Source of the DNA: Armatimonadota bacterium
GTDB taxonomy: Bacteria; Armatimonadota; Fimbriimonadia; Fimbriimonadales; Fimbriimonadaceae
Length of the DNA: 64,000 nt
Reading direction: 5' to 3'
Assembly (NCBI GenBank): GCA_018268355.1
Contig: JAFDWR010000002.1
Span: forward strand, 62,001 to 126,000
The position numbers were made by a program, and so were the translations under genes. Shown one piece after another: positions 2,668 through 52,789 of this stretch; within the stretch, counting starts at the first letter, position 1; each line of letters begins with the position of its first letter. Below the pieces are notes generated by a model that did no database searches, was not told the origin of the DNA, and worked only from the letters and a program-made list of their open reading frames with translations.

Positions 2668-3807
2668 TTACCAGACGTAGCTGTCCTGGGCCACGGAGAG
2701 CCTGTGGACCTGCGCCCACAGCCGCACCGCCTTTTGCTCGTGGAGGCTCGGCATCACGTTCTTCTTCGCCCGGACCTGGACCACCGCCCTCGACGCATGG
2801 TCGACCTCGACCGTGAGGCGCGCATACTCCTCGCCTCCTGCGATGGGGTCGGTCATCCAGCGAAAGCTGAGGATGCTCGTTCCCTTGCCAAGGCAGTCGT
2901 AGGCGTAGCTGGCTACGCAGTTGTTCTGCGCCTGCCCCTCGTTCCACAGCTCCTTTCGAGTGACGAGCTCGACCGCCTCGACCCGCGCGAACCGATACCG
3001 ATGAACCCAATCGGAAAACCGCCGCTGCCACCGGTCCTTGCTCTTGGGCTTCAGCAGGAGCAGTTCGCGGTAGTACGAGGTCGCGAAGTGGATCATCGGC
3101 TCGACCGGCGCAGTCGCGGGATCGCCACCGAGGTCCACCATCCAGGCATGCAGGCTCTCGGGAAGGATGTCGACCACCTTTGCCGAACGCGGAAACGCCC
3201 GGCAGATCCCACGCACCATGTTGAACCACGATTCCCCGAATCCGAGGTCCGTGTACCAAAGGAGACGAAGCAGCCGGCTCCGCAGACCTGGCTTCAGCGA
3301 ATGCGTTTCCGACATCGCCAATACCACGGCCTCCGCCAACGATTTCGCTGGCGAAGTGTTCAACACTTGATGCAATTCGGTCCGGGTCAGATGTATTGCA
3401 ACTGGCGCGAGCGATTCACCCAGAGCGGCGCGGCGGAACCACTCCGCGTAGTCCGTATCCACGCTTCCCACTCCGTGGGACACTTGTTGGCCAGGTTGAT
3501 GCGAGTAAAGCGCGCGGTACAAGATTTCCGGCACCGGATATCGCACATAGCAATGGTCAATCCACTCCCGAAATCTCAACTCGGGTGAATGCTTGATGCT
3601 ATGAAATTCGGCCGGGTTTCGAATCGGGTCCCAGTTTTGCGCTTCAGGGCAAAGCCAGGCTCGAAAAACCTCTTGTTCATGCTTTCTGTTGCGTCGATGA
3701 AGCGATAGTCGATCTTGACGATTCGCCTCGATAAGTGCGAGTTGCGCTGCACGCGCCGCCTCCAATCGGGCAGCATCACGGGCAGCCCTGGATTTGAGCT
3801 TGCTCAT
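2668..3807 (-). CDS. PcfJ-domain-like protein
   Basis: A 379-residue cytoplasmic protein. The N-terminal 40 residues are Ala/Arg-rich and probably coiled. The C-terminal 130 residues carry a PcfJ-type pattern: an LVTRKELWNEGQAQNNCVAS segment with a conserved Cys after an Asn pair, then SILSFRW, then a beta pair ARLTVEVD...AVVQVRAKKN, then a final helix with a Trp (KAVRLWAQVH). PcfJ-like proteins occur on conjugative plasmids and in integrated elements and have no settled biochemical function. Here the gene lies between housekeeping genes with no other conjugation genes nearby. A TTTTAT box ends 6 nt before the ATG, and a structured region of about 190 nt lies further upstream. Confidence 0.7.
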   Translation of the reverse strand: MSKLKSRAARDAARLEAARAAQLALIEANRQDRLSLHRRNRKHEQEVFRAWLCPEAQNWDPIRNPAEFHSIKHSPELRFREWIDHCYVRYPVPEILYRALYSHQPGQQVSHGVGSVDTDYAEWFRRAALGESLAPVAIHLTRTELHQVLNTSPAKSLAEAVVLAMSETHSLKPGLRSRLLRLLWYTDLGFGESWFNMVRGICRAFPRSAKVVDILPESLHAWMVDLGGDPATAPVEPMIHFATSYYRELLLLKPKSKDRWQRRFSDWVHRYRFARVEAVELVTRKELWNEGQAQNNCVASYAYDCLGKGTSILSFRWMTDPIAGGEEYARLTVEVDHASRAVVQVRAKKNVMPSLHEQKAVRLWAQVHRLSVAQDSYVW

Positions 3808-4065
3808 GGTCTGATAAAAAGTTAATGGAGGTCAGGCCTAGGCCCAAGTTGCCCCTTGAGGCAAGGCGTAGCCTAGGTGAAAGGGTTGATGCCCATTTGG
3901 GCGGGGGAGCACGACCGAGCGTGCTCATCGCTAGTGGGTGCTAGAGCACCCTCCGCGGGACACTCTAGCCATAGATCAGGCAGAGGTTAGACATAGTGGA
4001 GGGATCATGAAGCAGACAGGCCCTAATTGTCAAGGCCTGCCTTCATGATTCTTAACAAAATGCGA
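3808..4065 (-). other. Multi-hairpin non-coding region between accA and the PcfJ-like gene
   Basis: These 258 nt contain no convincing gene but several inverted repeats. 3837-3843 pairs with 3871-3877 and encloses 3849-3853/3860-3864. 3891-3894 pairs with 3899-3902. 3907-3913 pairs with 3920-3926 (7 bp, 6-nt loop). 3936-3941 pairs with 3946-3951 (6 bp, TAGA loop), and this is enclosed by 3930-3934/3965-3969. 4004-4012 pairs with 4041-4049, extended by 4017-4022/4034-4039. On the reverse strand TTGACA (4028-4033) and CATGAT (4004-4009) are 18 nt apart, a good promoter that would give an RNA of about 190 nt reading toward the PcfJ-like gene. It could be a structured leader, a small RNA or a repetitive palindromic element. 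Confidence 0.5.
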
Positions 4066-5037
4066 TTATTCGCCGAAGATTCCCATCGCGCGGAACTTGG
4101 CGTACCGCTCGGCCTTGATCTCGGCCCCGCTCTTGCCTTCGAATCCGGCCAGCGCGGAAATGATCGCCTCGCGCACCGAGGTCGCCGCCTCGATGGGGTC
4201 GCGGTGAGCGCCGCCCTTCGGTTCGTCGATGATCCCATCGACAAGGCCAAACTCCAGCGCAGACTGCGCGGTCAGGCGGAGCGCCTTTGCCGCGTCGGCA
4301 CCGCGATCAGCGGCTCGCCAGAGGATGCTCGCGCAGCCCTCAGGGGCGATGACGGAATAGATCGCGTGCTCCAAGATGAGAACCTTCGACGAGCAGGCAA
4401 TGCCAATTGCGCCGCCCGAACCGCCCTCGCCGATGATCACGCTGACCGAAGGCACCGTCAGCTCGAACATCTTGAGCATGCTTGCGGCAATCGCCTCGCT
4501 GATGCCGCGCGATTCGGCCTCCACGCCTGCATCCGCGCCGGGCGTATCGACAAACGTCACCACCGGCATCTTGAATCGCTCAGCGATTTCAAAAAGGCGG
4601 GTCGCCTTGCGATAGCCTTCGGGCCGTGCGTAGCCAAAGTTGCGCACCTGCCGCTCCTGGATATTGCGGCCCTTCTGGTGGCCGAGGACAATGACGCCCT
4701 TGCCATTCAGCTTCGCCACGCCGCCAAGGATCGCCTGGTCGTCCGCACAGCGGCGGTCACCGGCAAGGGGCAGAAAGTCGGAGAAGCAGCCGCTGATGTA
4801 ATCCTGGGTGTAGGGCCGCTTATCGGCGCGGGCCACGAGCACCTTTTCCCACGGGCTCAGCCGGGCATACATGACCTCGATGTAGTGGTTCGCGCGGGTC
4901 TCGTATTCAACGGCCAGATTTTCAATCGCGATGCGCTTGGAGGGGTCAATCTCGCGGCGGGCGCGTTCGCGCAGCTTCGCAATGTTCTCCTCAAGGTCGA
5001 TCAGGGGCTGTTCCCACTCTTTGTAACTCTTCGCCAT
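4066..5037 (-). CDS. accA: Acetyl-CoA carboxylase carboxyltransferase subunit alpha
   Basis: A 323-residue AccA of normal length. With AccD it transfers carboxyl from carboxybiotin to acetyl-CoA, making malonyl-CoA for fatty-acid synthesis. The N-terminus has the alpha-subunit helix pair (LIDLEENIAKLRER...). The core includes GVIVLGHQKGRN, the PEGYRKATRLFEIAERF segment, VDTPGADAG, GEGGSGGAIGI and an APEGCASILWR loop, all family signatures. It begins 3 nt after the accD stop, so the two subunits are made together. The biotin carboxylase at 45 kb is not adjacent. Confidence 0.97.
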   Translation of the reverse strand: MAKSYKEWEQPLIDLEENIAKLRERARREIDPSKRIAIENLAVEYETRANHYIEVMYARLSPWEKVLVARADKRPYTQDYISGCFSDFLPLAGDRRCADDQAILGGVAKLNGKGVIVLGHQKGRNIQERQVRNFGYARPEGYRKATRLFEIAERFKMPVVTFVDTPGADAGVEAESRGISEAIAASMLKMFELTVPSVSVIIGEGGSGGAIGIACSSKVLILEHAIYSVIAPEGCASILWRAADRGADAAKALRLTAQSALEFGLVDGIIDEPKGGAHRDPIEAATSVREAIISALAGFEGKSGAEIKAERYAKFRAMGIFGE

Positions 5038-49198: not shown

Positions 49199-51207
<2,009 letters not shown>

Positions 51208-51246: not shown

Positions 51247-51720
51247 CTAGAATCGCGGCTCGACGGGCTGAATCCAGAGGTGGGGATAGTCGTCCGGGTC
51301 GTCGACAATCTCCGCTTCGGCGGGCATCTCAAGGACCTGCAGGTGGTGCTCCTCAAATTCCTCTTGGTCGCGCAGGATCCGGTTGTAGCTCTCGTCTTTG
51401 AACGGCGGAAAACGCTCGCCGGTCTTGCCCATGATCGCCCGGCCGACTTTCGTTTTAACCTTATCGATCACCTTTCCAAAGTCGTCATTCGCGCGGCTCG
51501 GCGTGTCTTGGAGCAGGATGAGGGCGGTCGAGTTTGGCACGACGCAGAGGGCGATCGTCTCGAACTTCCGACCTTCGAGCCGGACGAGCGACTTGAACAG
51601 CAGCCCGCACTCCTCGTCGGTGAGGGGCCGACGGTGCATGAAAGAGACGTAGTACGTCACGTCTTCTGCGCGCCAGTGCGGCAGTCTTCCCTCCCATTTT
51701 TGAAAGTTCTTCCACCTCAT
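51247..51720 (-). CDS. RAYT-like (IS200/Y1-transposase-like) protein lacking catalytic residues
   Basis: A 157-residue protein with the layout of REP-associated tyrosine transposases: GRLPHWRAEDVTYYVSFMHR at the N-terminus, a helix, strand FETIALCVVPNSTALILL, KDESYNRILRDQEEFEEH, and EMPAEAEIVDDPDDYPHLW. In active members the strand reads PNHVHLL with the metal-binding His-x-His; here it is PNSTALI. The usual catalytic Tyr before the N(P)VKAGLV segment is also absent (HLQVLEMP). It should therefore be unable to cut DNA. The ATG overlaps the stop of the AlkC-like gene. It is probably a domesticated DNA-binding relative. Confidence 0.6.
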   Translation of the reverse strand: MRWKNFQKWEGRLPHWRAEDVTYYVSFMHRRPLTDEECGLLFKSLVRLEGRKFETIALCVVPNSTALILLQDTPSRANDDFGKVIDKVKTKVGRAIMGKTGERFPPFKDESYNRILRDQEEFEEHHLQVLEMPAEAEIVDDPDDYPHLWIQPVEPRF

Positions 51721-52451
51721 CTTGCTTCTTTCAGGCTCCTCGTTGCCCTTCGCACGACGTAGGCGGTCTCCTTGGTCGGCGACTCTTTGGACCACCGTGC
51801 GGTGACCTCGCGCACCCAATCGGGGTGGGCTTTGCTCGCGTCGTTCAGCCAGTTGGCAACGCTGTCGCGGACGTACTTCGACGGGTCGCTCCTGAGTGGC
51901 TCGATGAGGTGAAGGCCACGGGCTGGCTCGGCTTTCAGTGGCTCTAGGTGGGCGCACCAGACGCCGCGCGGACGGGTGACCTCGCTGGCAAACCGGCGGA
52001 TGCCTTCGTCGTCACTTGCGGTCCAGTCTCTGAGTATTTCGAGTGCCTCGGCCAAGTTCTCCGTCACCGCGGGCCGGGCGGCGAGCCATGCCCATTCGCG
52101 AACACCGAAATGAGGGTCGGCAGCAAAGGCGCGAAACGACTCCAGCAACTCCGGGAACGCCAACGACCGAGCAGCGAGCGAATAGCATGCCCACCCCCGG
52201 ACGGTGTCGCTGACATGGTTCTTCGCCAGGTGAAATTGATCGACGGTCAGCGACTCACCAACCGTCTTCATCCGGCCAAGGTAGCCGCCTTCAACGACGA
52301 GGCCTGGCTCGCCGAAGACCGACCGGTGCAACGCGCCGAGGTCCATCGCGAGTCCTTCGACCAGGTTGACGGTGGGCAGGGTGCCCTGGTTGAGCTGAGC
52401 GAGAATCTCGGGCGGGATCTCGGCCATGCGGCGCGCGCCTTTGCGGGTCAT
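51717..52451 (-). CDS. AlkC/AlkD-like HEAT-repeat DNA glycosylase-type protein
   Basis: A 244-residue all-helical protein. The repeats include DTVRGWACYSLAARSLAFPE, HFGVREWAWLAARPAVTENL and EGIRRFASEVTRPRGVWC. The RRFASEVTRPR...W segment followed by PSKYVRDSVANWLNDASKAH is typical of the AlkC-like alkylation-repair family (COG4335). Such enzymes remove alkylated bases such as 3-methyladenine. The ATG overlaps the stop of the PII gene (ATGA). Whether this member is catalytic is not shown. Confidence 0.78.
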   Translation of the reverse strand: MTRKGARRMAEIPPEILAQLNQGTLPTVNLVEGLAMDLGALHRSVFGEPGLVVEGGYLGRMKTVGESLTVDQFHLAKNHVSDTVRGWACYSLAARSLAFPELLESFRAFAADPHFGVREWAWLAARPAVTENLAEALEILRDWTASDDEGIRRFASEVTRPRGVWCAHLEPLKAEPARGLHLIEPLRSDPSKYVRDSVANWLNDASKAHPDWVREVTARWSKESPTKETAYVVRRATRSLKEAR

Positions 52452-52789
52452 GAAAGGGCGGCCTCGCCGCGTTCGCCGGTTCGAATCCGGATCGCGTCGA
52501 TGACATCGGAAATGAAGAGTTTGCCGTCGCCGATCTCGCCGGTCTGGAGGGTTTCGACGAGGCACTGGACGACGTCATCGACCTCGTCGTCGGTCACGAT
52601 GATCTCGAGCTTGGCTTTGGGCAGGAGATTCACCGCGTAGGTGCTGCCCCGATAGAGGTCGGTGCGGCCTTGCTGCCGCCCATAGCCCTTGATCGATTCG
52701 ACGCTCAGGGCAGGAAACCCAGCATCGCTCAGGGCCTTCTGAGCGACCGCAAGGTCGCTCATCCGGATAAAGGCTTCAATCTTCTTCAA
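52448..52789 (-). CDS. Nitrogen regulatory protein PII family
   Basis: A 113-residue PII protein that senses 2-oxoglutarate and ATP/ADP. It has KKIEAFIRMSDLAVAQKAL, the T-loop GRQQGRTDLYRGSTYAVNLL with Tyr46 and Tyr51 (the usual uridylylation site), and the C-terminal signature DGKLFISDVIDAIRIRTGE. It starts with TTG. TAGAAT (complement of 52799-52804) ends 9 nt upstream. No amtB or glnA gene is near; instead it leads an operon with an AlkC-like and a RAYT-like gene. Confidence 0.93.
   Translation of the reverse strand: MKKIEAFIRMSDLAVAQKALSDAGFPALSVESIKGYGRQQGRTDLYRGSTYAVNLLPKAKLEIIVTDDEVDDVVQCLVETLQTGEIGDGKLFISDVIDAIRIRTGERGEAALS

Follow-up and report, generated by a model that had tools for sequence, protein, structure and literature searches.

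RAYTs are a prominent example of domesticated transposases in bacteria with unknown host function, a question that is clouded by their continuing action on REPINs (PMC8049555). A locus in the window, by which we mean the whole 64,000-nucleotide stretch of Fimbriimonadaceae DNA analyzed here, poses this question in another form: what is a RAYT-like protein kept for once its catalytic residues have gone? The gene lies on the minus strand at 51247–51720 and, as the original prediction stated, is intact at that position, encoding 157 amino acids plus a stop codon. Its start codon, the ATG at 51720, shares an ATGA with the TGA of an upstream HEAT-repeat gene (gap of −4). A longer version, a 236-amino acid open reading frame starting with GTG, was dropped, since the orthologue alignments begin at the ATG at 51720. 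Neither a second copy of the gene nor a canonical RAYT was detected in the source genome.

The RAYT frame previously read in this protein proved to be real. A Pfam scan of the protein returned no match, nor did a PDB search with its single sequence, and PF01797 (IS200/IS605 Y1 transposase) was absent from the Pfam matches of 50 orthologues, which comprised scattered chance matches only. The NCBIfam model REP_Tyr_transpos (NF047646) gave a weak match (E 3.9e-6, 26.8 bits) that did not reach its cut-off of 80 bits. When a profile of the orthologues was compared with the PDB, TnpA-REP (4er8) ranked first, in register, with an E-value of 0.078. The AlphaFold2 model (pLDDT 87, pTM 0.82) displayed a strand-helix-strand-strand-helix-strand-helix topology, and its comparison with known structures pointed to TnpA-REP and not to an unrelated fold: the complex of TnpA-REP with a REP hairpin (4er8) was the top match in Foldseek (E 4.9e-7) and also ranked first with VIA-align (Z 14.0, rmsd 3.4, 135 residues), followed by IS200/IS605 TnpA at Z values of about 9–10. 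Matches to the Thg1 family, at a Z of about 9, were read as a common ferredoxin-like arrangement. Descent of the protein from a RAYT is as good as certain, and it is referred to below as the RAYT derivative.

The state of the catalytic site was analyzed in an alignment of 87 sequences of the derivative and 27 outgroup RAYTs. In all 27 outgroup proteins, the columns of the two histidines, the catalytic tyrosine and the asparagine of Y-xxx-NPV read H, H, Y and N, the last of these residues presumably being a metal ligand, by analogy with Gln131 of IS608 TnpA. The HxH pair was found in none of the 87 derivatives, with a single stray His in each His column; Tyr did not occur at the catalytic column in any of the 86 sequences covering it, and none of the 87 aligned sequences carries the Asn. 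The degenerate HUH site of the window protein (51523–51531, minus strand, located by codon counting as 51720 − 3(n − 1)) reads S64-T65-A66, exactly the Ser-Thr-Ala noticed earlier in place of His-x-His. The Tyr region, likewise described as altered, has Gln at residue 128 in the catalytic Tyr column (51337–51339, minus strand) and Met at residue 132 in the Asn column that follows. The profile alignment places the His columns on LPEHMH of 4er8 and the Tyr column on its Y115, the catalytic tyrosine of E. coli TnpA-REP (PMC8266576). The loss is fixed, as no orthologue examined has kept the HUH and Tyr residues. Judged by sequence and predicted fold, the RAYT derivative can neither cleave nor ligate DNA through HUH chemistry. 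By catalytic definition it is not a RAYT but a RAYT-derived domesticated family, which may still bind in a RAYT-like manner.

Regarding distribution, a scan of genome contigs with the protein alone retrieved no relatives, while an alignment used as query found them. Among 101 relatives searched, almost every genome belonging to the family of the source genome had a single-copy orthologue, with 32–50% identity. When 291 genomes from the phylum were searched with a profile, the gene turned up in 80 of the 85 Fimbriimonadaceae, essentially once per genome; the five genomes without it are 68–89% complete. Genome G161 also carries it (locus L186). Outside the family, no member was found among the 291 genomes; the remaining matches scored 99 bits at most, and those examined elsewhere in the phylum proved to be normal RAYTs that have both MPDHVHLL and Y..NNPV. 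The viral contigs scanned did not contain it either. In a maximum-likelihood tree, the derivatives formed a clade split from the active RAYTs at 100/100, inside which several genera are clades and the deeper branching is poorly resolved. The dN/dS values in the four closest pairs were 0.07, 0.043, 0.185 and 0.096, that is, purifying selection throughout the range of 0.043–0.185. These low ratios, together with universality in the family, show that the gene is inherited vertically under purifying selection. The gene displays the features expected of a domesticated gene: one copy per genome, universality in its clade, monophyly and purifying selection. Hence, the earlier suggestion that the protein is selected for a non-catalytic role gained strong support from the fixed loss, the wide retention and the low dN/dS, and we have very little doubt that it is both non-catalytic and selected.

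Which surfaces selection has preserved can be read from the residues common to the derivatives and the active RAYTs, namely P14, H15, W16, Y23, F27, K89, E110, D113, R114, I115, R117 and D118. Residues 113–117 (51370–51384, minus strand) form a retained strand motif, NRILR in the window protein and DRI(V/I)R in the family, which aligns to residues 100 and 104 of TnpA-REP. In the E. coli protein, GTAG is contacted by Q95, D100 and R104, residues that vary relatively little between groups (PMC8266576). Position 100 corresponds to D113 of the derivative and position 104 to R117, the 4er8 chain reading Glu at 100 in the profile alignment. D113 is present in 86 of 87 sequences, the window protein, with Asn, being the sole exception, and R117 in 86 of 86. 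Other residues are specific to the derivatives: F6, W9, R17 and A18, which together with P14, H15 and W16 are invariant within an N-terminal arm (residues 6–18; 51667–51705, minus strand). The mean pLDDT of this arm was 50–57 in the AlphaFold2 model; being conserved yet not confidently folded alone, it suggests a binding surface. The derivatives are also acidic (median pI 5.4 vs. 8.4 for active RAYTs; 5.6 for the window protein). Since their C-terminal segment has a net charge of −10 compared to −2 in active RAYTs, the old catalytic helix looks no longer suited to DNA. The N-terminal segment is basic (+5), and the arm and the strand face could have remained a binding surface for nucleic acid or a protein. 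From these sequence features, the case for some nucleic-acid binding having been kept appears evenly balanced.

We also surveyed the gene neighborhood in 69 loci, a few of them truncated, with each genome represented by one locus. In the window, a gene for a P-II (GlnB-like) nitrogen regulatory protein, matched by Pfam P-II, is located at 52448–52789 on the minus strand. In 35 of the 69 loci, the derivative has a same-strand P-II gene upstream, which frequently overlaps it; the gap is −1 to 12 bp in many cases, and this adjacency extends to at least 17 of 32 genera. The gene directly upstream in the window, a HEAT-repeat/DNA-alkylation-repair-like gene (51717–52484, minus strand), is found between P-II and the derivative in only four of the 69 loci, the window and three others, and is a local insertion. 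Thus, of the ATGA-linked operon described in the original prediction, the overlap is real, but the HEAT gene is a rare partner and P-II the widespread one. Gene adjacency and overlap suggest a functional tie to P-II, to which we assign somewhat less than an even chance; as about half of the loci have no P-II alongside, the link could be one of ancestral gene order only. Upstream of the operon formed by P-II and the derivative, neither a common GTAG hairpin nor an enriched motif was found. The source genome has two P-II genes in total, the second being a divergent P-II-like gene at L177:1474–1851.

Downstream of the derivative, dnaK (49199–51136, minus strand, in the window) is encoded on the same strand within 1.3 kb in 18 of the 69 loci, and was considered as a functional partner. 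Several of the intervening gaps hold TTGAGT-N7-ACTCAA or a near match just upstream of dnaK, which we take to resemble the HspR-bound HAIR element (CTTGAGT-N7-ACTCAAG). A HAIR-like element ahead of several dnaK genes makes separate control of dnaK likelier than a partnership; the candidate was therefore rejected, and dnaK probably has its own control. In the window, positions 51150–51170 upstream of dnaK read CTTTAGC-CTATGAC-ACTCAAT, which is HAIR-like; clearer copies are present in orthologous gaps, for example at locus L035.

Several other explanations of the conserved, non-catalytic protein were weighed. If the old site had been rebuilt into that of a new enzyme, the replacement of the second His by Glu or Asp in most derivatives (79 of 86 at column 66) and the Thr or Ser of the middle residue (53 of 53 sequences at column 65) would be explained. 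However, the window protein has Ala at position 66, column 64 and the Tyr and Asn columns are variable, and the former site lacks an invariant polar triad; a new enzyme is accordingly improbable. Loss of the catalytic residues would also be expected of a decaying transposase remnant without function, and sequences without core motifs were treated as probably non-functional by Quentin et al. 2018 (PMC6006769). Nevertheless, purifying selection and universal retention refute decay: with presence in 80 of 85 genomes, intact genes in the orthologues examined, low dN/dS and invariants of its own, the gene has next to no probability of being a remnant.

The protein might instead be a dominant-negative silencer of a REP/RAYT population, binding REP-like hairpins or canonical RAYTs, and up to about 10 canonical RAYTs do occur in some Fimbriimonadaceae genomes. 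However, the derivative occurs without any detectable canonical RAYT in the source genome and in at least 10 of 36 further family genomes that were searched. No dispersed REP-like repeats, but only one local array, were found in 374 kb of the 2.7 Mb source genome, and the hairpins at 3808–4065, originally proposed as REP targets, are not REPs, as positions 3800–4070 are single-copy in that genome. Conservation of the derivative under selection where both RAYT and REP are missing is already largely seen, and silencing is very improbable. For DNA or REP-hairpin binding in general, as first suggested, retention of D113/R117 is favorable, whereas the acidity, the single-copy hairpins and the lack of dispersed repeats in the sequence covered count against it; the acidic C-terminus does so for classical hairpin binding. 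A pure protein–protein adaptor, that is, a P-II receptor or effector using the RAYT fold as a scaffold and the arm and acidic C-terminal helix as interfaces, nucleic-acid binding being gone, would agree with the P-II adjacency, with the strongly acidic C-terminal helix and tail and with an invariant, low-confidence arm, which fits a segment folding on a partner. Yet D113 and R117, aligned to GTAG contacts, are still kept from RAYTs and the N-terminal segment is still basic, and we consider such an adaptor rather unlikely.

Two sequences noticed during these searches deserve mention. The hairpin-rich stretch at 3808–4065, for which neither Rfam nor ARAGORN gave a family, is possibly structured non-coding RNA or terminators. 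The 16-mer GTCCGTTGGCTGGTGG was tried as a REP-like candidate and rejected, because all seven copies, separated by alternating spacers, belong to a single array of 0.4 kb located outside the window (L206:12436–12825; G000:C2:172436–172825), and the 16-mer occurs nowhere else in the genome.

The explanation that we favor is that the gene encodes a domesticated, non-enzymatic RAYT derivative, which probably acts in regulation as a binding protein with a tie to P-II, and for which we infer both the ligand and the partner. An active ‘LPHW’-type RAYT would have entered the Fimbriimonadaceae ancestor, both histidines, the Tyr and the Asn would have been lost, and the gene would have become fixed as a single-copy chromosomal gene. 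Its product would act as a non-enzymatic binding protein, most likely recognizing structured or single-stranded nucleic acid through the basic N-terminal arm and the strand that holds D113 and R117. Its activity may be tied to the P-II protein encoded just upstream, often with translational coupling, and it would be a regulator or adaptor answering the nitrogen or energy state. Taken as a whole, this account of an exapted non-catalytic binding protein tied to P-II stands, in our judgment, at about equal chances of being right or wrong. Its most specific form, in which a P-II signalling operon has as its output protein a catalytically dead nucleic-acid-binding regulator exapted in the family ancestor, is unlikely; if true, it would mean that a transposase-derived regulator has been joined to nitrogen/energy sensing.

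Beyond its exact role, the RAYT fold has been kept for the entire depth of the Fimbriimonadaceae while every catalytic residue was lost. Since the fold persists without catalysis in a genome with no canonical RAYT detected and no REPs found in 374 kb, the host function of the scaffold appears separated from transposition, and could become testable in Fimbriimonas ginsengisoli. Surveys that discard RAYTs lacking motifs as probably non-functional (PMC6006769) would miss such proteins. No earlier description of the family was found in the literature searched, to which Bertels et al. 2017 did not belong.

Among known systems, the IS200/IS605 TnpA proteins (IS608, ISDra2) share the Y1/HUH ferredoxin-like fold with the derivative at the Z values given above, but they are active transposases of mobile elements, in contrast with a chromosomal protein devoid of catalytic residues. 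TnpA-REP/RAYT (E. coli, 4er8; NF047646) is closer, with the fold conserved over 135 residues, the same residue register, a strand motif, acidic-x3-R, that aligns with the GTAG contacts, and a C-terminal P-x(4)-L...Y region. The derivative differs from it in lacking HxH, Tyr and the Asn of Y-xxx-NPV, in falling under the NCBIfam cut-off, in its acidity and in a source genome where 374 kb yielded no REP repeats. The RAYTs of Bertels et al., as cited in PMC8049555, are likewise single-copy, vertically inherited and domesticated, but according to that paper they continue to replicate REPINs; compared to these, the derivative has lost the chemistry, again with no REPs found in 374 kb. Its nearest sequence relatives are the ‘LPHW’-type active RAYTs that occur in Armatimonadota and further phyla (L178–L185 and L157–L174, among others), with which it shares the LPHW...Y..(V/I)TFR start and ESYDRI(V/I)RD. 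These differ in having kept HxH, Tyr and Asn in 27 of 27 sequences, and their occurrence among hosts is scattered, in contrast with the universal presence of the RAYT derivative in its family.
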